Shown one piece after another: positions 53,975 through 64,000 of a stretch of DNA of 64,000 bases. Under the pieces are notes generated by a model. The model searched no databases, was not told the DNA's origin, and worked only from the letters and a program-made list of their open reading frames with translations. How positions within the stretch are numbered: position 1 is the first letter of the stretch; every line of letters starts with the position of its first letter. The position numbers were made by a program, and so were the translations under genes. Origin of the DNA: Shouchella miscanthi (lineage in GTDB: Bacteria > Bacillota > Bacilli > Bacillales > Bacillaceae_D). The stretch is from contig NZ_CP042163.1 in assembly GCF_007725405.1 (NCBI RefSeq), forward strand, positions 4,154,001 to 4,218,000, given 5' to 3'.

Positions 53975-54109
53975 ATTGATAGAGAAAATCCTATAATACT
54001 TTCCTTTCTAATCAAACCATTTTATTGAGTTGCGTAGATGTTGATAAAAAGTTCATTTAAAGATATTATAGATATATATAGTCTGTAAATTACGAATTAA
54101 GGAGGAGCA

Positions 54110-54607
54110 ATGAATAATTATAAGGTTCAATATGATCTGGTCCGTCGTTCAAGAGATTTATTATTTACCTATTGTGAATCAATGAAACCAAGCGATTACC
54201 TTAAAAAAGTTGAAAGACTAGGGGAGCATTCTATACCGAGTCTACATTGTCATGTCTCCGACGCTTATCGAATTTGGATTGGCAAACGTGCTTTAGGAAA
54301 ATCAGTGGAAAAAACCCCGCCTCAAAAGATTACATCTGTTGAACAGATGCGTAAAGTCTTTCATAAGACAGATGAAATCGTTTATGAATTTCTTGAGAAC
54401 TTTACAGCTGATTGGAATCAAGCGAGTCAAGATACGTGGAATAGTAATAGTGCAGAGCTCACCGAATTATGGTTGTTTACACATACTGTCACTCATGAAT
54501 TTCATCACAGAGGACAAATCGTTAAGATAGGTCAACAGCTTGGCTATAAGCCACCAAAGCTCATTTTGCCGAAACCAATTAAGAAGGAAAATTGGAATTT
54601 AGAATGA
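54110..54607 (+). CDS. DinB-family protein
   Basis: 165 residues forming a four-helix bundle. Metal-ligand histidines are seen in SIPSLHCHVSDAYRIW (about residue 48) and in HEFHHRGQIVKIGQQLGY near the end. The HxxxHRGQ ending is the DinB/YfiT signature. These are probably thiol-dependent metalloenzymes (bacillithiol transferase type) or damage-induced proteins; the activity is unknown. AAGGAGG precedes the ATG. It is the last ordinary gene before the A/T-rich island. Confidence 0.82.
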   Translation: MNNYKVQYDLVRRSRDLLFTYCESMKPSDYLKKVERLGEHSIPSLHCHVSDAYRIWIGKRALGKSVEKTPPQKITSVEQMRKVFHKTDEIVYEFLENFTADWNQASQDTWNSNSAELTELWLFTHTVTHEFHHRGQIVKIGQQLGYKPPKLILPKPIKKENWNLE

Positions 54608-54686
54608 AAATAATATTACGTTACAATGATATTAAAAACAACAGGATATAAGTTAAATTTTGTTGTTTCAGTTTGCAATAGAAAAA

Positions 54687-54715
54687 CAAAAAAGGCTGAA
54701 ATTCAACCTTTTTTG
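54687..54715. terminator. Terminator between dinB and the island
   Basis: CAAAAAAGGCTGA and TCAACCTTTTTTG pair over thirteen positions with one imperfect pair. The A/T runs allow use in both directions. Confidence 0.72.
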
Positions 54716-54789
54716 AATGTATTATCCTAAACATTAAGTTACTAAGACTTTATATTTTTTTAAGACTTCGATTTTCAAATGGCATAAAC

Positions 54790-55650
54790 CTAATCCATTT
54801 TAATTAATAAATCATTTTTAATAAATTGATAATAACTTAAATCTATAACTTGTAAAACTCTACCCAGCGAATTTAAATAAATATTAAAATTTTCTTTATC
54901 TAGAAAACTAATCCTTAAATAAAGACTTCGTATAAGAGATTTTATATTAGATTTTATAGTATACTGTTTTTCATAATCTAAGCTAGCATCTACTTCGCTT
55001 AAATCATTTAACCACGCATCAAAATCTTCAATCTTTAGTCGGTTCTTGAAAATTATCTTCACCAAAACATTGACTATTCTTTCATCTTCTTCGTCTTTTA
55101 AAATATATTCGTGTGTAGAAAATTTTATTGAAATAACATTCAAAACCTTTATCCGATCTTCTCTATTTAGATGATCGATCAACTGGTATAAGGTATCGGC
55201 AGTATGAGCAATACTATGTGCCCACCCCTTTCCACTGACGTGACCTCTGAGATCTATTTCTTTAGTCATATAATCAACAGTCTTATTAATGATAGCTCTC
55301 ACTTCTTCCGTGGAGAATATACTTTTCTTGTTATGTATATACATTATAGGGGCTAATAAAAGAACTGAAAATGACCTTTTAAAAATTGAATCAGTACCTT
55401 GTTCTCCAATTCGATAAAATAAAAATTCATTACATATTAACTTTTCTTTTAGATGTTTTATCTCTCGCTCCTTGAGAAAACCCTCTATTATCCAATATGA
55501 GAGTTGAGTATAAATAAGGTCATCTCTTAATTCACTATCTGTTGTACCTAATTGTTTTAATGACTCTTCTACCGTCTGTTGTAAATTTGTGTCTACATGT
55601 GGTTTAAAATTGTTTTCTTTTAGCTTCAGTAGATTGTCTTTCAATATCAC
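54790..55650 (-). CDS. DUF2785-containing helical protein
   Basis: 286 residues, GTG start eight bases after AAAGGAG. The diagnostic DUF2785 segment is DLRGHVSGKGWAHSIAHTAD (about residues 133-152). The protein is otherwise helical, in a HEAT-like pattern (EREIKHLKEKLICNEFLFYR). Function of the family is unknown. It overlaps the end of a broken E1/ThiF-like gene by 47 bases, so both belong to one operon. Codons are A/T-rich compared with the genes to the left. Confidence 0.75.
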   Translation of the reverse strand: MILKDNLLKLKENNFKPHVDTNLQQTVEESLKQLGTTDSELRDDLIYTQLSYWIIEGFLKEREIKHLKEKLICNEFLFYRIGEQGTDSIFKRSFSVLLLAPIMYIHNKKSIFSTEEVRAIINKTVDYMTKEIDLRGHVSGKGWAHSIAHTADTLYQLIDHLNREDRIKVLNVISIKFSTHEYILKDEEDERIVNVLVKIIFKNRLKIEDFDAWLNDLSEVDASLDYEKQYTIKSNIKSLIRSLYLRISFLDKENFNIYLNSLGRVLQVIDLSYYQFIKNDLLIKMD

Positions 55651-56728
55651 GATTTAAGCTCCTTTCTTTACTGCAAAAACTACATATAGGTTCCCATTCC
55701 TCTTCCTTAATAATTTGTCCGGTAATGAAATCTATTAAAGTTCTCTTTCCTAATGATATTGGTTCGCTTGTTTTTAGTATCAACCTTAATGCTTCCATAC
55801 AGATTAAGGATGCAATCATACTTATATGTGGAAGAATTGCAGCATTATTATTCTCTAATTTAGAGGTAGCCTCATGTAATTCTTTGTTTACTTCTAAATG
55901 CTTCTTGTAAAAGCATGCTTTACAAGGGCTTTCACCAGGAACTACAGTAAAATATTGACCTAAAGTTATGCCTGTTCCACCTGATATATAAGGGACACCC
56001 AACTCTTGGCATCTGTTATTTACCCATAAAATAATATCAACTGGGGGTGAATCCGCTGCACATATAACTAATTCAACATCCTTATTGATTAAATCTTTTC
56101 AATCCTCTTCACAGTTTATTTTTCTTTCATATGAATTAAAATTAATACTAGAATTGAACTCTTTTAGCCTTTCTATACCTATGTCTGTCTTTTTCTTTCC
56201 TATATTATTTTCAGAATAAAGTATTTGCCTGTTTAGGTTCTTATGTTCAATATCATCAAAATCAACTGTTACAATATTGCCCACTCCTAACCCGGATAAT
56301 TGATAGAGTACATTACTCCCGAGCCCTCCCATACCTATAACTAAAACTTTAGTCTCACATAACTTTTCTTGGAAACTAAATTTAGATTTATTCAAATTAC
56401 TGAATGCAGAAAAATAATTTATGTTATTATTGTATTTTTTTCTAAGTATTTCAGATTCATTAGCAAAAGTATCTTCTCCGTTCTCTAATACTCCCATATC
56501 GTTTAAAGATTCAATAATTTCTTGTATCTCAGTAAAACTTATTGGATAATCAATTTTCATGCAATTATATATGTTCTCTACATTATTACTCCCATCCAAT
56601 AAGTCTATCAGTTTTATAAATAAATTATTCTCATCTTCAATTTCTACTGCAAAATTTGGTTCATCCCCTATCTGAAATCCATGTGAAAATTTTATCACTG
56701 GATATATATGTTTCAATTTCGGCTTCAT
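55604..56728 (-). pseudogene. E1-like ThiF/MccB family adenylyltransferase of RiPP type, interrupted by in-frame UGA
   Basis: The frame from ATG 56728 (GGAGGG upstream) stays in register over 374 codons except for one TGA at 56099-56101, codon 210. The first 90 residues (HIYPVIKFSHGFQIGDEPNF and on) look like the leader-binding wHTH domain found on cyclodehydratase-type E1 proteins. The ATP site is VLVIGMGGLGSNVLYQLSGL with VDFDDIEHKNLNRQ. After the stop, ELVICAADSPPVDIILWVNN continues the E1 fold. CKACFYK and CSFCSKE supply the structural zinc cysteines. A full-length enzyme would adenylate a peptide carboxyl group; here only a 209-residue fragment is made unless UGA is read through. Confidence 0.8.
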
Positions 56729-56746
56729 AAAAACCCTCCATATTAA

Positions 56747-56908
56747 GTAATTATAGATACAAAAATTGGTAATGATGTAATGGAGATATTTAAACATTTA
56801 AACGATGAGGGTAGAACAATAATAGTGATTACTCATGGCGTAGATGTTGCACAATATGCTAATAGGGAATTTTTAATGAGAGATGGTCAGTTAATGGAAG
56901 CTAATTAA
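56747..56908 (+). pseudogene. C-terminal stump of an ABC transporter ATPase (MacB/LolD type)
   Basis: A 53-codon frame without an N-terminus encodes IDTKIGNDVMEIFKHLNDEG then TIIVITHGVDVAQYANREFL and RDGQLMEAN. This is the D-loop, H-loop and tail of an antimicrobial-peptide-type ABC ATPase. Walker A, signature and Walker B are missing. The fragment begins only 18 bases from the divergent E1 start codon, so a deletion joined the two genes. It supports a former bacteriocin or RiPP cluster. Confidence 0.8.
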
Positions 56909-56951
56909 TTAAATAAATCTACAATATTTTAATTAATCAAAGGAGAAAAAA

Positions 56952-57130
56952 ATGAACATTACTTGGACACCGTATTTTTTATTTTGTATATTAACACTTA
57001 TGTTTATTCTTATTCAATTTGACATCATAATTAATTGGTCTGAATACTCAACTTTTAGGAAAGTTATTTTTTAATTCTAGTATTTTTGTTTATTGCTAAT
57101 CTATTATTATTTCTTCCAAGAAATAAATAA
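56952..57130 (+). pseudogene. Small two-helix membrane protein with a homopolymer frameshift
   Basis: An ATG behind AAAGGAG opens a 40-codon frame (MNITWTPYFLFCILTLMFIL and on) that stops at 57072-57074 within a run of six T. If the run had seven T, the frame would continue ILVFLFIANLLLFLPRNK to TAA at 57128-57130, giving about 59 residues with two membrane helices. Either a real frameshift, phase variation at the T run, or a base-calling error. It follows the ABC ATPase stump on the same strand, as immunity or permease-like genes do in peptide clusters. Confidence 0.6.
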
Positions 57131-57231
57131 CATAACGCACAATCATTAAAAAGTATTTCGTTTATTTAAAAGCTGTATAGTCCAGTTTATAAGAATCTAA
57201 TTTATCAACTTAATAAAAAGTCACATTATAA

Positions 57232-57313
57232 AGAGAAGAAGTCTAAAATTGGCTTCTTCTCTCCCAACCTCCCTCACTTATGATAAGGCTCACCTTGTTG
57301 GATGTAAGTGAGG
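57232..57313. terminator. Two hairpins in the 270-base gap before the ATPase gene
   Basis: AGAGAAGAAG/CTTCTTCTCT (57232-57262) is a ten-base stem. CCTCACTTA/TAAGTGAGG (57272-57313) is a second, nine-base inverted repeat with a 24-base loop. The pair could stop transcription from both the decayed cluster and the reverse-strand operon. Nothing else is recognised in the gap. Confidence 0.6.
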
Positions 57314-57400
57314 TTATATAATTAAAAATAAATTTCACAAAATGCATTTTGAAAATAACTTTTTTCTCCATTTACGTCTAGGGATATTAATTTTGTAAAA

Positions 57401-59266
57401 CTATTGTTTAAAACCCAGCTCATTTAGAATAATTGATTTTAAATTATTAACTTCAATAGTTTTCAATTTAATGCACTCTCTGACCAGCAAATGAATGAAT
57501 CTATCATATTTAATACCTTCTACAAATTGATTTACAAATTCCTTTAATATATCTCTTCCAGGTGGAAAGTCCTTCCATATAGTTTCCCAGTTTTCCATAA
57601 TATAATTCTTTTTTTTATCTAGATTAACCATTATACTACTATCACCAAGTATATCATTTATTCGCTCTTTTTGAGCAACTACTCTTTCTTTGAGTCTTTC
57701 CTCTAAATTCTCGCCCCCCACATGAAAATTGAATTTTCTTAACTCTTCGTGTAATTCAAACGCTATCCACTGGGCTATAACATCATCTCTTTGACTATCA
57801 GCAATTTCTTTTAATTTAATCTCAATCTGATTCGAATTATTAAATATATCAAGACCTAAATTCTTTATGACATTTAAAATTGCATCACCAATTAAAAAAT
57901 AATTTTCAATATGATACTTTGGGAGTATATGGATTCTTTGGTTAAGCTTTACCCTAAGTTCTTCTATTTGAGAGGTTATTAAGAAATCTTTATCTCTAAT
58001 TAAATAAAAATCGGATGCTTTACTCGCCTCTGTTAATAAATCTACTACAGCATTACTTACTCTCATTAGATTATTTATACCCGTAGACTGGACAAAACTT
58101 ATATGTTCTTTATAATCATCAAATAATAATTGAAAAAATTCTTTATCCGTTTTCCCCTCGACAAATATAACCTTTTCAGATATTAATTGTAAACCCACAT
58201 TTGCACCTAATGACTTAAAAGTTTCAAACTTATCTTCATTACTAATAAGCCTAAACATTTGGTTTTCACCTGAATAATGAACAATTTGAAAAACATCTTT
58301 ATAATTTGCAGAATCCAAAATTTCGTAAGAATGGGTTGCTAGCCAAATTTGATTATTACCCTGTAATTGCTTCAAATGTGAGGATAATAATTTTTCTAAA
58401 TTAGCATTAAGGTGCAATTCCGGTTCATCATATAAAAATATATAGCTTTCTGCCTGAATCCATTTTAAATTGACGAATAACATTACTATCTCTTTCTCTC
58501 CCGAACTAAGTTCGTCTATGTCATGTATTAATTCATCGTATTCTATAGGAAAGGTTAACCCGGAAATATCTCTCTTTACACCTAAAAACTTTTTAGGTTT
58601 AATATAAGAGTTAATTATGTGAACTAACTCTTTAAGTTCATTCCCTATATCCCCACTTTCAGCTACTTTGATTAAATCATCAAAGTAAATAGCTACTAAG
58701 TAATCTTTTACCCTTTCAAACCTATTGTCATTTTCATTTCTTCTACTATATTTACTATATCTTCTCTCATCATCTTCTTCATAGTATCGTGCTAACGAGC
58801 TTAGATTTATTTCTTGATTTGATTTCGATGCTAAATTCCTATTGGCATTAATATGGTTAATTTGGGAGAATTTATTGCCCTTTAGCAACAATTCTCCTAA
58901 CTCATTGTCAAATCTGCAGTTGTTTATATTATTATAATCAAGTTTTCCGGTAACTAAATCTTTATCAGCTTTAAGAAAGGATTTCTCCTTTTCTGATAGT
59001 TGAAAAGTAATCTCAATTTCCCCCTTCTGGGTTTCATCTCCGAAGGGGGTATTTGCCATCATTAAATCGATTCTTCTTTGTATTCCATTTTTTAAATCAC
59101 TTATATAAATACGTTTTACCAGTCTTTGAAATTGCTTAATTGCATTAAATATTGTCGATTTACCCACTCCATTTGGACCTGCAATAACTACAAAATCAGG
59201 TATATCATCCATTTCTATATATCTAATTGCATTGTAATTACGTATAATTAATTTTTTTATTTTCAT
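57401..59266 (-). CDS. AAA (ABC-type) ATPase fused to a TOPRIM/DUF4435-like nuclease domain
   Basis: 621 residues. The ATPase half has Walker A VIAGPNGVGKSTIFNAI (about residues 27-43), the signature DELSSGEKEIVMLFV, Walker B SYIFLYDEPELHLN and switch histidine WLATHSYEIL. From about residue 365 a second domain opens with VIFVEGKTDKEFFQLLFDDY (conserved Glu). It has DFYLIRDKDFLI (Asp pair) and HILPKYHIENYFL, the pattern of TOPRIM-like DUF4435 nucleases. Both parts recall OLD/GajA proteins and the AriA plus AriB pair of PARIS, here in one chain. It is the last gene of a three-gene operon. An anti-phage role is inferred. Confidence 0.85.
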   Translation of the reverse strand: MKIKKLIIRNYNAIRYIEMDDIPDFVVIAGPNGVGKSTIFNAIKQFQRLVKRIYISDLKNGIQRRIDLMMANTPFGDETQKGEIEITFQLSEKEKSFLKADKDLVTGKLDYNNINNCRFDNELGELLLKGNKFSQINHINANRNLASKSNQEINLSSLARYYEEDDERRYSKYSRRNENDNRFERVKDYLVAIYFDDLIKVAESGDIGNELKELVHIINSYIKPKKFLGVKRDISGLTFPIEYDELIHDIDELSSGEKEIVMLFVNLKWIQAESYIFLYDEPELHLNANLEKLLSSHLKQLQGNNQIWLATHSYEILDSANYKDVFQIVHYSGENQMFRLISNEDKFETFKSLGANVGLQLISEKVIFVEGKTDKEFFQLLFDDYKEHISFVQSTGINNLMRVSNAVVDLLTEASKASDFYLIRDKDFLITSQIEELRVKLNQRIHILPKYHIENYFLIGDAILNVIKNLGLDIFNNSNQIEIKLKEIADSQRDDVIAQWIAFELHEELRKFNFHVGGENLEERLKERVVAQKERINDILGDSSIMVNLDKKKNYIMENWETIWKDFPPGRDILKEFVNQFVEGIKYDRFIHLLVRECIKLKTIEVNNLKSIILNELGFKQ

Positions 59267-59286
59267 TATAATCCCCTATCTTAAAA

Positions 59287-60468
59287 TTAAAAAGTACTTC
59301 TCATTTCCATTTCAATATCCTTGATATTATCTAACCAAGTACCACAACTATCAATAAAATTAAAAAGTCCTAATAAGTAATTAAAAAAGTTAGCTACATC
59401 AATCACTTCATTATTAAATTTATACTCGTTACTATATGAACAAGGGTACCTAAACATATCGCCTTGTTTATCTAGGGCATCTAGAGAAATAATATAGCTC
59501 TCTGCTAAATCAAGTGTTTCTTCATCTTGGTGGTCTTCTTGGGCATAATGTAATAACATTGGTTTAATTGACTTCCACAAGTCTTTATACAACAAATGTG
59601 AGTTTCTTTTCCTTCTTATAATTTTCTCATCAATATTTTGATACATCTTTATATGAAGTAGTCTTTTTAGTCCTATCTCAATAGCATTTCTCATTAAAAA
59701 AACAATTGGATAAAATAATGCTTCATCTCTTGATTCTTTAAATTGTGTAAATAAAAATTCTGCAACCCTACGATATCCTGTAACTTGCTTATAAAATCCA
59801 TCACTCAAAGGCGAATCCCATAAATAGCAATTATGAATGGCTGAGTTTGCTAATTTTATAAATACCGGCTCCTCTGAAAGGTTTAGTTTAATTTCATTAT
59901 ACCAATCCCCGTAAATTATTTTGTTTAAGGCACTATAACAATATATAAGTCGAATACTCATATAATATATGTCCAGTGACTTTTCGCCATATTGTTGCAA
60001 AAAATCATCCTTAAAAGGATACCTAAACAGATCAGAATTTGAATCTACTACTTCTATACTTTCTAAATACTGCTCTATCCACATTTGTTCGGATTCCGTT
60101 AGCTCAACAATCCCATATCTCTCTTTAAATATCATATACAATCCAAAAACATTGTGTTTTTCTGCAATAAATATTTTTTGTAATTCGCTCTTACTAGTTC
60201 CTTTAATGGCTAAACCAGCCTTAATTAATAATTCTATAGCTTGGCGCAACATATAAACTCCAGGAAGAAACCAGGTGTCATACTTGCTATTATTATTATG
60301 AGAACTTTCTATAACCTCTTTTAACACTATATAGCCTGCATTCATATAATTTTTTGATAAATTGGCATAGTCAACATTAGGTTTTTTAGTCCACTTTACA
60401 TATATTTTCATCTCTTCGTTTAATACTGTTTTTATTTCTTTATTTTTTTTAATCCAAACAAGACTCAA
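59287..60468 (-). CDS. Tandem HEPN-like two-domain protein
   Basis: 393 residues, TTG start eight bases after AAAGGAG. The protein consists of two similar halves. Half one has LPGVYMLRQAIELLIKAGLA, EKHNVFGLYMIF and SDLFRYPF. Half two has YPIVFLMRNAIEIGLKRLLH, NSHLLYKDLW and GDMFRYPC at matching spacing. The R-x-AIE-x-x-(I/L)K followed by (K/S)H-x-(L/V) pattern is that of HEPN-type helical domains, several of which are RNases in toxin and defence systems. A canonical R-x4-6-H motif appears only as RKRNSH in the second half. It stands 20 bases ahead of the ATPase gene. Confidence 0.65.
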   Translation of the reverse strand: MSLVWIKKNKEIKTVLNEEMKIYVKWTKKPNVDYANLSKNYMNAGYIVLKEVIESSHNNNSKYDTWFLPGVYMLRQAIELLIKAGLAIKGTSKSELQKIFIAEKHNVFGLYMIFKERYGIVELTESEQMWIEQYLESIEVVDSNSDLFRYPFKDDFLQQYGEKSLDIYYMSIRLIYCYSALNKIIYGDWYNEIKLNLSEEPVFIKLANSAIHNCYLWDSPLSDGFYKQVTGYRRVAEFLFTQFKESRDEALFYPIVFLMRNAIEIGLKRLLHIKMYQNIDEKIIRRKRNSHLLYKDLWKSIKPMLLHYAQEDHQDEETLDLAESYIISLDALDKQGDMFRYPCSYSNEYKFNNEVIDVANFFNYLLGLFNFIDSCGTWLDNIKDIEMEMRSTF

Positions 60469-60557
60469 TTACATTGCTCCTTTTAAGTTGGTTTCAATTA
60501 AGAACCTTACAAAATAATCTTAGATTAATTTGAATCAATCATCCTTTTTAAGTCTTT

Positions 60558-61502
60558 TCAAAATGGTAAATCTTGCTTTGACATAGGTGTTGTTGATTGT
60601 TTAGGAAACATAGATTTGATACTAGAGACAGCTTGCTGATTATCAAAGATAATTTTTTTTAATTTTTTATACACTGTTGGGCTCATTGAGTACAATCTTG
60701 CATTACCGTGATCAGTGAATTCCTCTATATCAATAATTTCACGTTGAACAATTTTGGATAGCGCTGCTTCATACCTTTCACTTAAATAGTTCTCTAAGTT
60801 ATTCTTATCTTCCCACTTTTGAATTGCTAAAACGGTTTCATCAGCCATCCATCTTGCCCCAAACATTCGAATTTCATCTTCAACAACAAAAATAAGGAAC
60901 AATTGTTCATCTTTATCAAACTCTATTTCGCAAAATATATCAATTTCTGATAAATTATTTTTTACTGAATTATTTTTTACTTCAACTTCTAAATCAGCTG
61001 CATCTACCAATCTTCTTACTTCTTTTGTAATAAAATGTCGTATTTTTCTAGTATCATAGGTTCCGTATAATCCACGTTCATTGTTAGATAAATGCTCTCT
61101 ATATTTTGATACTAATCTACGTTCATCAATTAATTCCTCTGGTATAGGATTATCTATAAAGAAAATCCCTATTCCTCTTTGATGTTTTTCATAAAAAACA
61201 TTAATTTCCTCAATAGTACCCGATTTATTATTTGCTGTTCTTGTACCAATCTTATTTCCAAATATAGCAATTAATATATCACTAGATCTTACTATTTGTT
61301 CGTTAATTATTGCCTGACCACTTGAATTAACTGCATAAGAAGCTGTTGAATTGTTCTCCCATCTAATAGGCATTAAAACAATGTTGTTCGTGTCACTATG
61401 TTCATTATTCCAATCTAAGATTAATCTTTCGACCTCATTTCGCTGTTCAAGAACATCGCTAGGAGATGCTATAAATATCTTGATTAACTTTACTAATTTC
61501 AT
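60558..61502 (-). CDS. DUF4062-containing (TIR-like) protein
   Basis: 314 residues. The N-terminal domain begins LIKIFIASPSDVLEQRNEVE and continues INEQIVRSSDILIAIFGNKI then SGTIEEINVFYEK, the diagnostic order of DUF4062, a Rossmann-like fold related to TIR domains. The second part (about residues 175-314) has no recognised motif and is partly helical. It is the first gene of the operon, followed after 89 bases by the tandem HEPN-like gene. The ribosome site (AAGGGG) is distant. A sensing or NAD-directed effector role is inference. Confidence 0.75.
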   Translation of the reverse strand: MKLVKLIKIFIASPSDVLEQRNEVERLILDWNNEHSDTNNIVLMPIRWENNSTASYAVNSSGQAIINEQIVRSSDILIAIFGNKIGTRTANNKSGTIEEINVFYEKHQRGIGIFFIDNPIPEELIDERRLVSKYREHLSNNERGLYGTYDTRKIRHFITKEVRRLVDAADLEVEVKNNSVKNNLSEIDIFCEIEFDKDEQLFLIFVVEDEIRMFGARWMADETVLAIQKWEDKNNLENYLSERYEAALSKIVQREIIDIEEFTDHGNARLYSMSPTVYKKLKKIIFDNQQAVSSIKSMFPKQSTTPMSKQDLPF

Positions 61503-61734
61503 AGAGTTTTAAACACCCCTTAAATTTTTGAGTCCTTATTATTTTCTGTGAAACTGGTTTATTTTGACCTTTTTTGTTTTTCATTAAATTTCCTGTCACA
61601 TTGAGGAATGCAAATTGACGCATCCTCTAGCCTTTCAAAAATCAATTTATTGGTCTTCCTTTTTTCGTTTAGAAATATTTTCTTCTATTGTAACTATTAT
61701 AAGCACCAATTTACCATATTTTTCTCCAAAAACG
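61503..61734. other. Gap between the three-gene operon and hag
   Basis: About 230 bases, A/T-rich, presumably holding the reverse-strand promoter of the operon. I found no clear -35/-10 pair or repeat. The hag terminator lies at its right end. Confidence 0.4.
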
Positions 61735-61767
61735 GAAAAAAGAGGACAAAAATTATCGTTTGTCCTC
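61735..61767 (-). terminator. Terminator of hag
   Basis: GAGGACAAA and TTTGTCCTC form a nine-base stem with an eight-base loop. Six U follow on the reverse strand. It lies about 20 bases after the original hag stop at 61789. Confidence 0.88.
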
Positions 61768-61812
61768 AAAACTTTATTATTTGATTTGTTAACCTAGAAG
61801 CTGCAACACTTG

Positions 61813-63330
61813 CTACGGTGCTTGGTTCGCTTGCGCAAGCATAGATTGTGATGCTTGAGACAAGATGTTTTGTTTCGTGAACTCCATGATTACCTTTGCC
61901 ATGTCTACATCACGAATACGTGATTCAGCAGCTTGAAGATTTTCAGAAGAGTTGTCAAGGTTAGAGATTGTGTGCTCAAGACGGTTTTGGCCAAGTTGAG
62001 AACGCTCCTTAGATACATTGTCAATAGCAGTTTGAAGAGTAGTGATTGCAGCAGACGCACTCTCATGTGTAGATACATCCAAAGCATTTTCAGTTTGAGC
62101 ATTACTAGTTCCATCAGTAACTTTTAGGTGCTCATTTAAGCCACCTTTAGATGTAATGCCTAGTGCAGATGCTCTCATATCAGAAATATTGATTTGAAGA
62201 CTTTGTCCTGTATTAGCACCAATTTGGAGTTCTGATTTGAATTCAGCCGGGTTAGCTTTTACAGAGAAAGAATTTCCACTAGCAACATCTTCAGTTAGAG
62301 TAATTGAATCATTATTCACTGCTGCAGTTACTGCTAAATCACCACTACCATTGATGCTCTTCAGTAAATTCGTAGTGGTTTCTGTTGAATTACTACCAAT
62401 TACAAATTGGTTTCCAGTAGGTTCACCTTCTTCAATTGCAGTGAATCTCACCCCATTGATCTCAATAGATTCTCCGGCCTTGAAGTTTTCTGTAATAGTT
62501 ATAGATGTTTGTCCTGTTTGTGCTACAGTAGCATCTCTACCACCTGTTAAACCTTGCTCAGATAGATTACCAACTGTTCTATCTCCATCAGTAATTTTTA
62601 GACTAACAGCGTTCTTAACATCTTCTGATGCGCTATTATATAAATCTTGAATATCCTGTTGAGTTAACTCAACTGTGGCACCATCTTTAACGCCTGCTGT
62701 AATGATAATTTTACCTTGATCAATACTTATACTCGCATCTACATCCTCATCCAGATCAGGATTATCCGTTACTTCAATACTTAACCCATTTCCTTCCACA
62801 TCTGAATCTTTAGCAGTAAAGGTCATTCCAGCATGAGTTGTAGATGCTTTTGTTGCTTCAGTAGCTAATTGACTTGTTCTCCCTTGACTGACATCAACAG
62901 AACCTTTACCTTCTTGACCTTGAAGCAATTTTTTGTTGTTAAATTCAGTCGTATTGCCAATACGATTAATCTCTGATGTTAATGAATTAATCTCATCTTG
63001 AATGTTTTGTGTATCCTGTTCAGTATTTGTACCATTAGAAGCCTGAGTTGCAAGCTCCCGCATACGTTGAAGTATATTTTGAGTTTCGGTCAAAGCACCC
63101 TCAGCGGTTTGAATCATGGAAATTCCATCTTGGGCATTACGACTTGCTTGATCCAAACCTCGAACTTGCGCGCGCATTTTTTCAGAGATCGCAAGTCCAG
63201 CAGCGTCATCGCCGGCACGGTTAATGCGAAGACCTGAAGATAGTTTTTCTTGTGCCTTTGCCGCCATTCCTTGATTTACGCCAAGTTGACGGTGAGCGTT
63301 CATTGCGCTCAAGTTGTTGTTGATAATCAT
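61813..63330 (-). CDS. hag: Flagellin, truncated eight codons early by an in-frame UAG
   Basis: 505 residues as read. The N-terminal D0/D1 region ([40 protein letters not shown]) and the C-terminal D1 helix ([36 protein letters not shown]) are classic flagellin. The variable centre (about residues 150-400) contains a hook-IN-like stretch ([19 protein letters not shown]). After ANQAP comes TAG (61813-61815), but the same frame continues Q-V-L-Q-L-L-G to TAA at 61789-61791, the normal flagellin ending. The most likely ancestral codon is CAG. It stands downstream of csrA. AAGGGTG is the ribosome site, a possible CsrA target. Confidence 0.95.
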
Positions 63331-63418
63331 TTCTTAACACACCCTTATGTTTTTTATTTTTCAACATCGATACGGTAAAGCATTTATTCACACTCGCAGA
63401 ATTGCGAAGGTTTGACCA

Positions 63419-63655
63419 TTAATCTAATTGATTCTGATTGCTCTCTTCTTGCTGTGCTACGAAAATTTCTCCACGAATAATTGGAATGTGCTTAGGTACA
63501 TCGAAATGAAGTTTTACAGACATACCTTCTACTTTGACCAAAGTAACCTTAATATCGTCTCCAATCATTACGGACTCATCTACGCCTCTTTGCAAAACTA
63601 GTCCCGTGTTATACAGTTTTTTGTGCTTAGGCTTTCGATTACCTTTTGGCTTCAT
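63419..63655 (-). CDS. csrA: CsrA-family translational repressor with a basic N-terminal extension
   Basis: 78 residues. The CsrA core starts at about residue 19 (GLVLQRGVDESVMIGDDIKV) and continues VEGMSVKLHFDVPKHIPIIR with GEIFVAQQEE. The Arg of the C-terminal RNA-binding strand (IIRGEI) is kept. Standard CsrA begins at MLVLTRK; here 18 extra residues, nine of them Lys or Arg counting the run KPKGNRKPKHKK, precede the core. AAGGAGGG stands correctly before the ATG, so the extension is real. In Bacillus CsrA blocks hag translation and is countered by FliW, which is not in this window. Confidence 0.85.
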   Translation of the reverse strand: MKPKGNRKPKHKKLYNTGLVLQRGVDESVMIGDDIKVTLVKVEGMSVKLHFDVPKHIPIIRGEIFVAQQEESNQNQLD

Positions 63656-63876
63656 CTCATGCCCTCCTTGGCTGTGTATTACTTTTTTAAAATTAAAGGG
63701 CTTTTTGTTCGAGAAATTATTAAACTCCTCTACACTATAAAATTTTTTATCAAATTGTGTCGTATCAAGGCGAATTATATTTCAAATCTACATGAACTTG
63801 TTGAAAAGTAGTTACAGAAGCGTATAATGAAAAATTGTCACTTCCATGTGATAAAAACAAATTCTTGGGGGAAATT

Positions 63877-64000
63877 ATGAAAAAAATATTAGTAAGTAGT
63901 ATTATTGCATCTGCGGTATTTATTGGTCTTAACAATTCATCAGCTTTTGCTGAGGAAATAAGTATTTCAACTGAACATCAACAGGTTATTGAAGATAATT
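63877..64000 (+). CDS. Start of an exported protein gene (runs off the right edge)
   Basis: An ATG behind TGGGGGAAATT opens a frame reading MKKILVSSIIASAVFIGLNN then SSAFA-EEIS, a typical signal peptide with an AFA cleavage site. Only 41 residues are visible, so the family cannot be named. It is divergent from csrA. Confidence 0.75.
   Translation, partial: MKKILVSSIIASAVFIGLNNSSAFAEEISISTEHQQVIEDN

Follow-up and report, generated by a model that had tools for sequence, protein, structure and literature searches.

A Swarozyc-type DUF4062 gene, a tandem HEPN-like gene and a fused AriA-AriB gene, probably independent defence genes, in a variable locus of Shouchella miscanthi

Gene content of the locus and the two outer genes

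We analysed a stretch of 64,000 nucleotides of Shouchella miscanthi (contig NZ_CP042163.1, positions 4,154,001 to 4,218,000; the window hereafter), in which three reverse-strand genes lie in close order. The initial annotation had described them as a DUF4062 (TIR-like) gene, a gene for a protein with two HEPN-like domains and a gene for an ATPase fused to a TOPRIM-type nuclease domain, together forming a candidate undescribed defence system. The list of open reading frames (ORFs) places all three genes where they had been reported, as follows.

60558..61502, reverse strand: DUF4062 (TIR-like) gene (gene 1), 314 aa, with a predicted NADase domain at about residues 1-175, a C-terminal auxiliary domain and a terminal tip like that of single-stranded DNA-binding proteins (SSBs)
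59287..60468, reverse strand: tandem helical HEPN-like gene (gene 2, the middle gene), 393 aa, TTG start; family absent from Pfam, PADLOC and PHROGs
57401..59266, reverse strand: fused AriA-AriB gene (gene 3; ABC ATPase plus DUF4435 TOPRIM), 621 aa, single-gene PARIS

The gaps between the genes are 89 bp (DUF4062/HEPN-like) and 20 bp (HEPN-like/AriAB). A pattern scan, whose promoter and terminator counts were near the shuffle expectation, found no terminator-like site between them, and the trio is probably transcribed together. The A/T-rich island in which the genes had been placed is evident in 2-kb windows, with a G+C content of 0.28-0.31 across 54 to 62 kb versus 0.33-0.44 for most of the remaining window.

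The product of gene 3 matches PF13304, PF13175 and PF14491 with 53.0, 42.9 and 36.7 bits (cut-offs 27, 32.1 and 27), in agreement with its reading as an AAA ATPase plus TOPRIM domain. The published rule for detecting PARIS, a system whose ariAB exists also as a single-gene fusion, combines AAA_21 or AAA_15 with DUF4435 at thresholds of 27, 32 and 27 bits (Rousset et al., 2022; PMC9122126); the same three scores satisfy it. By this rule gene 3 is a fused AriA-AriB and hence a single-gene PARIS. AriAB was also its best PADLOC family by a wide margin (250.8 bits, E = 8e-75, residues 131-598, plus a second, more N-terminal stretch), followed at a distance by PtuA (2.1e-17), Old (5.1e-15) and GajA (5e-14). 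The sequence motifs of both halves are kept in the nearest relative, which is 77% identical, and so is the Walker B region.

59153..59179, reverse strand: Walker A GPNGVGKST, residues 30-38
58496..58510, reverse strand: ABC signature LSSGE, residues 253-257
57797..58171, reverse strand: DUF4435 TOPRIM stretch, residues 366-490 (PF14491), with VEGKTD (Glu370) and RDKD (424-427)

This nearest relative (L012:6168-8810) belongs to genome G075 of another bacterial family, where it stands alone directly 3' of rlmH, adjoined by a gene for a D12-class adenine methyltransferase. AriAB fusions are rare: they were found in two of the 149 relatives (one being the own genome), in 1 of 398 genomes of the class (again the own) and in two plasmid records, and a search of 299 genomes of the phylum with the PADLOC AriAB model returned the own genome only. 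In two-gene PARIS, an anti-restriction protein acts as the trigger and the TOPRIM half cleaves tRNA (PMC9122126, PMC12409363). By analogy, the ATPase half of the fusion would sense an anti-restriction-type protein of the phage and release the TOPRIM half for cleavage of host tRNA. Differently from PARIS as published, the two fusions lie 3' of rlmH and not in a prophage hotspot, and the neighbours of gene 3 are other genes.

The DUF4062 assignment of gene 1 likewise held, PF13271 scoring 28.2 bits against a cut-off of 24.7; the PADLOC family PDC-S60 matches residues 4-183 (E = 3e-23). In the structure model (mean predicted local distance difference test score, pLDDT, of 59), the N-terminal domain shows the alternation of strands and helices expected of TIR-like or NDT-like folds, and the C-terminal region is chiefly helical with a pair of short strands, at pLDDT values mostly under 60. 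A preprint of 2026 presents DUF4062 proteins as TIR-like NADases with a conserved catalytic glutamate and names the single-gene defence Swarozyc; its Klebsiella member, KpSwz, brings about abortive infection after sensing the phage portal via a helix-turn-helix/winged auxiliary domain (PMC13174449). Similarly to Swarozyc, gene 1 combines a DUF4062 domain, an invariant glutamate and a C-terminal auxiliary region in a single gene whose family occurs in defence neighbourhoods. The difference is that the gene 1 subfamily bears an SSB-like C-terminal tip; the term SSB is absent from the main text of the preprint (PMC13174449). Glu99 is the likely counterpart of E97 of KpSwz.

61206..61208, reverse strand: codon of Glu99 in SGTIEEI, likely catalytic glutamate, unchanged in 7 of 7 aligned relatives

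We infer that gene 1 encodes a Swarozyc-type NADase, an activity published for the Klebsiella protein. Its auxiliary domain would sense a phage product and release the TIR-like domain to hydrolyse NAD+.

Full-length DUF4062 relatives, 39-44% identical, reside on Enterococcus and Vagococcus plasmids; the query matched 188 plasmid records, 123 of which cover at least 80% of it, and five were inspected. On plasmids, in G357 and on viral contigs, such full-length relatives are single genes, those on plasmids with Qat or type I restriction genes in their vicinity. Two relatives (L075, 21.2 bits; L014, 19.7 bits) score under the Pfam cut-off. No further relatives turned up in forty genomes from the genus to which G357 belongs, and the enterococcal protein as query had no match among viral contigs. 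Two enterococcal plasmids (L021 and L022) carry broken copies with an altered end or a split frame; intact copies are present on other plasmids.

The tandem HEPN-like protein

The middle protein matches no Pfam and no PADLOC family at E <= 1 and no PHROGs family at E <= 0.01; its sole NCBIfam line (E = 0.043) is far under the cut-off and not credible. It is a duplicated helical domain. Its two halves are homologous to each other (hhalign probability 99.0) and to a set of single-domain relatives (99.5 and 99.6), and the model, built from three sequences (mean pLDDT 65), is all-helical and consists of two similar units of about five helices each. Both halves carry a Glu-x3-Lys motif, a later histidine and a Phe-Arg-Tyr-Pro (FRYP) motif. 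Across the family, this combination was recognised in 15 of 17 domains by pattern and, with one residue changed in each, by eye in the second half of the L004 protein and in the L050 protein. In the first half of the middle protein the motifs lie at the following positions.

60220..60246, reverse strand: R75-x3-E79-x3-K83 (RQAIELLIK)
60016..60027, reverse strand: F148-R-Y-P151; R149, Y150 and P151 invariant in alignments

The HEPN label of the two domains drew indirect support from the duplication, the helical model, a sub-threshold match to Pfam HEPN (PF05168) in 2 of 10 relatives and an AbiV-like layout of residues; Foldseek provided no PDB match for it. The classical HEPN RNase motif R-x4-6-H is not conserved across 11 sequences of the family. 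In HEPN domains, Ex3[KR] has been placed in helix 2, and the AbiV and AF0298 types have lost the motif histidine, an alternative histidine between helices 2 and 3 being a possible active site (Anantharaman et al., 2013; PMC3710099). Similarly to these types, the middle family has Glu-x3-Lys, an alternative histidine before the arginine and no histidine of the R-x4-6-H motif. It differs from them in that the domain is duplicated in one chain and has no match to a HEPN family over the cut-off; the FRYP motif is not described for AbiV/AF0298-type HEPN in the text of PMC3710099 available to us. Since the AbiV-type layout fits the family, we keep the HEPN label as likely but unproven. The middle protein would act as a stand-alone defence effector, most likely by cleaving RNA at an alternative active site of the AbiV type (Glu-x3-Lys, His, Arg). 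With an hhalign probability under 1%, kinship of the family to DUF5677 was rejected.

Five other full-length tandem relatives were found, on three plasmids and in genomes G031 and G456, and single-domain relatives occur in further Bacilli and on enterobacterial plasmids. One of the tandem proteins (L013) matched 207 plasmid records, three of them over at least 80%, and one Klebsiella record was inspected. On such plasmids, single-domain relatives of this FRYP family are encoded by unannotated genes, L050:4004-4612 being one of them. Four of the five tandem genes adjoin known or candidate defence genes, different each time: PDC-M46AB at L036, type I restriction genes and an endonuclease of the PADLOC class "Effector" at L002, PDC-M01/Septu with transposition genes in between at L003, and a TIR-SLOG gene at L004. 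At L013 the neighbours are a TPR gene and a resolvase gene, with no PADLOC match. These differing neighbours form a pattern of independent defence genes in islands. Gene 2 is thus the undescribed part of the trio, a duplicated HEPN-like family marked by FRYP that recurs beside varied defence genes and is a candidate for single-gene tests.

Co-occurrence of the three families and the locus 3' of rlmH

The co-occurrence search proposed in the initial annotation was carried out in 149 relatives and 398 genomes of the class, with the same settings, one genome per species and E-value limits that varied. AriAB candidates were scored at 8 per genome in the relatives and at no more than 3 per genome in the class and phylum sets, so that distant AriAB copies could be missed. 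Two or more of the three families occur together in the own genome only. Beyond it, DUF4062 was found in five genomes (G253, G357, G467, G483 and G493), the HEPN-like family in eight (G230, G258, G342, G397, G419, G456 and G517 of the class; G031 of the relatives) and AriAB in G075, which is not among the genomes positive for either of the others. Among 27 neighbourhood loci of relatives (354 ORFs of at least 60 aa), several of them near-identical or overlapping (for example L075-L077 and L014/L043), 13 contain DUF4062, 11 the HEPN-like family, 2 AriAB and none two families; the remaining locus holds fragments only, below detection at the limit used. Neither the phage collection (all three proteins), nor the viral contigs (HEPN-like and AriAB queries), nor two pattern-based scans of genome contigs yielded relatives, and PDB sequence searches gave nothing useful.

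A single undescribed three-gene system, in which DUF4062 would be the NADase effector, the HEPN-like protein an RNase and AriAB the sensor, is therefore left without support: a second trio or pair is absent from every searched set, an outcome that the initial annotation had named as refuting, and both outer families have been published as self-sufficient (PMC13174449; PARIS fusion, PMC9122126). The close same-strand order and the common low G+C speak for such a system, which we consider very unlikely. As for a match to named systems, the outer two genes have one each (Swarozyc, from a preprint, and fused PARIS) and the middle gene has none. A narrower idea pairs only the HEPN-like gene with AriAB; the HEPN-like protein would then be an extra effector or a regulator of PARIS, and DUF4062 a bystander. 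The 20-bp gap, the common strand and the lack of a terminator-like site between the two genes favour it; against it, AriAB is present in 0 of 11 HEPN-like neighbourhood loci, and G075 has no HEPN-like gene in the AriAB neighbourhood or elsewhere in the genome. This pairing is unlikely, less so than the three-gene system.

The explanation that we prefer, and hold to be probable, is that the trio consists of three mechanistically independent abortive-infection-type defence genes, acquired singly and stacked in a variable locus 3' of rlmH; a defence role, as the initial annotation had proposed, is likely for all three. Independence is argued by the occurrence of each family without the other two throughout the searched genomes and loci, by the solitary AriAB of G075, by the single-gene state of the DUF4062 relatives and the changing neighbours of the HEPN-like genes, by the membership of the outer genes in known single-gene systems, and by the variability of the segment within the species. 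Several points weigh against this explanation. The trio lies on one strand with short gaps and no intervening terminator-like site, an arrangement that also fits an operon of partners. The AriAB sample is small, with one genome beyond the own in 149 and none in 398. A two-sequence AriAB profile retrieves no chain from the PDB at E <= 0.01, which sets gene 3 at a distance from any solved PARIS protein. The models of the HEPN-like and DUF4062 proteins are of low confidence; with the former, Foldseek returned no PDB match at E <= 0.001 and no HEPN match, and with the latter no TIR match, only general Rossmann-type and chance matches. If the explanation holds, the trio exemplifies the stacking of defence genes, and a false lead to a new system is removed.

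To delimit the variable locus, the window was extended by the adjoining 19 kb of the own chromosome and compared with G521, by kinship a genome of the same species, and with G003, a genome of the same genus. Both lack an 11,943-bp segment and have about 3 kb of other genes instead, including LysR and MFS genes in G521; the flanks align at 99.6% and 97.1% (G521) and at 95.5% and 98.8% (G003).

54059-66001 (window numbering; 54059..64000 inside the window): variable segment, adjoining the 3' end of rlmH
66012-66491 (window numbering): rlmH (Pfam SPOUT_MTase), its stop 10 bp from the right edge of the segment

The end of rlmH is the insertion place of staphylococcal cassettes. We looked at the far end of the segment for a cassette-like direct repeat of the end of rlmH: the shared words are A/T-rich and 10-11 bases long, none reaching 12 or more, and inspection of the segment's ORFs by eye revealed no recombinase. 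A literature search at overview level found nothing on the rlmH locus as a defence hotspot in Bacillaceae. Related AriAB fusions of two bacterial families occupy the place 3' of rlmH, in the own genome and in G075, which is possibly a shared insertion place.

Downstream of the trio, on the reverse strand, an in-frame stop divides a ThiF/E1-like gene into 56099-56797 and 55604-56002 (pieces searched apart); the gene is possibly part of what the initial annotation had called a decayed peptide cluster. The trio itself might by extension be decaying cargo without function, as the interrupted neighbour and the variability of the segment within the species would allow. All three frames are intact, however, and Walker A, the ABC signature, the TOPRIM motifs, the DUF4062 glutamate and, in both halves, E-x3-K/H/FRYP are all present, which makes decay a very unlikely account. 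Upstream of the trio are a flagellin gene (61813-63330) and then a terminator-like site (61767-61742). This flagellin gene and a CsrA-family gene (63419-63655, Pfam CsrA) lie inside the segment that G521 lacks and are odd cargo beside defence genes. A second CsrA of G000 (3182034-3182204) equals in score the only match in G521.

An SSB-like tip on TIR-fold proteins

The most surprising feature is an SSB-like tip, borne by TIR-fold effectors of two unrelated kinds. The C-terminus of the DUF4062 protein resembles those of the host SSBs, the four SSB genes of the own genome terminating in SDDDLPF or SSDDLPF.

60558..60581, reverse strand: SKQDLPF-stop, C-terminus of the DUF4062 protein

The enterococcal and vagococcal DUF4062 relatives end in DPFSNLDESDLPF and those of phage contigs (L075-L077) in FELPF. 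A canonical TIR protein (Pfam TIR_2) unrelated to DUF4062, encoded beside HEPN-like fragments in G230 (L037:6798-7808, 336 aa), has the C-terminus EIEIVDDNLPF; a homologue 45% identical to it, from a Klebsiella plasmid (L090:4022-4954, 310 aa), terminates in DIESDDIPF. The C-terminus of the SSB of E. coli is -DDDIPF. Taken with the DDIPF of the Klebsiella-plasmid homologue, this makes the tip seem matched to the host SSB, with -LPF in Firmicutes and -DDIPF in that homologue. A search for a homologue of the TIR protein in E. coli that carries a DDIPF tip gave none.

The presence of -DLPF, -ELPF, -DDNLPF and -DDIPF on the DUF4062 protein, some of its plasmid and phage relatives and an unrelated TIR family suggests that NADase effectors may carry an SSB tail as a bait or as a signal for docking. 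The likeness to SSB tips lies in the last residues; the difference is that they sit here on a TIR-fold effector and not on an OB-fold DNA-binding protein. The DUF4062 tip would dock the protein to, or bait, SSB-tail-binding proteins. We tentatively propose mimicry of the SSB tail, whereby replication or recombination proteins that dock on this tail, whether of the phage or recruited by it from the host, might be drawn to the NADase and activate it; we put the chance of this somewhat below even. If true, this would offer a general explanation, open to testing, of how certain NADase defences detect that phage DNA is being replicated. A literature search at overview level found no description of an SSB-like tip on a TIR protein.

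Other observations count against a functional tip. One DUF4062 relative (L014) ends in -KLPF without an acidic residue, a full-length one (L019) has no tip, and neither do the DUF4062 ORFs that match N-terminally only (13 distinct, plus 4 in a second set). Two TIR relatives that are alike over part of the protein only (L091 and L092) lack the tip, and four other TIR-family ORFs or neighbours lack it or have different ends. Such endings also arise by chance, as the -DDLIPF of an unrelated short ORF (L091:4568-5044) shows. Overall, 44 of 1622 ORFs of at least 100 aa end in [DE]x0-2[LIV]PF. Loci selected by the scan for the ending (L177-L216) account for 32 of them; the other 12 are six DUF4062 (one a fragment), two TIR and three SSB proteins and the unrelated one at L091. 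Because the DUF4062, TIR and SSB loci were picked by homology, this single unrelated match alone estimates the background.

Scanning viral contigs for DDLPF ends gave at least 120 loci, 80 of which were inspected. Thirty of the 80 match a single SSB (HMMER), and many of the other 50 resemble, by eye, phage single-stranded DNA-binding proteins, which marks the ending as characteristic of that functional class. A further point against the tip on TIR-fold proteins is that none was recognised among the 80 by eye, without a TIR-profile search. A long primase-like protein and an exonuclease-like protein (by eye) on viral contigs L146 and L179 likewise end in DDLPF, so that the tip extends beyond single-stranded DNA-binding proteins.

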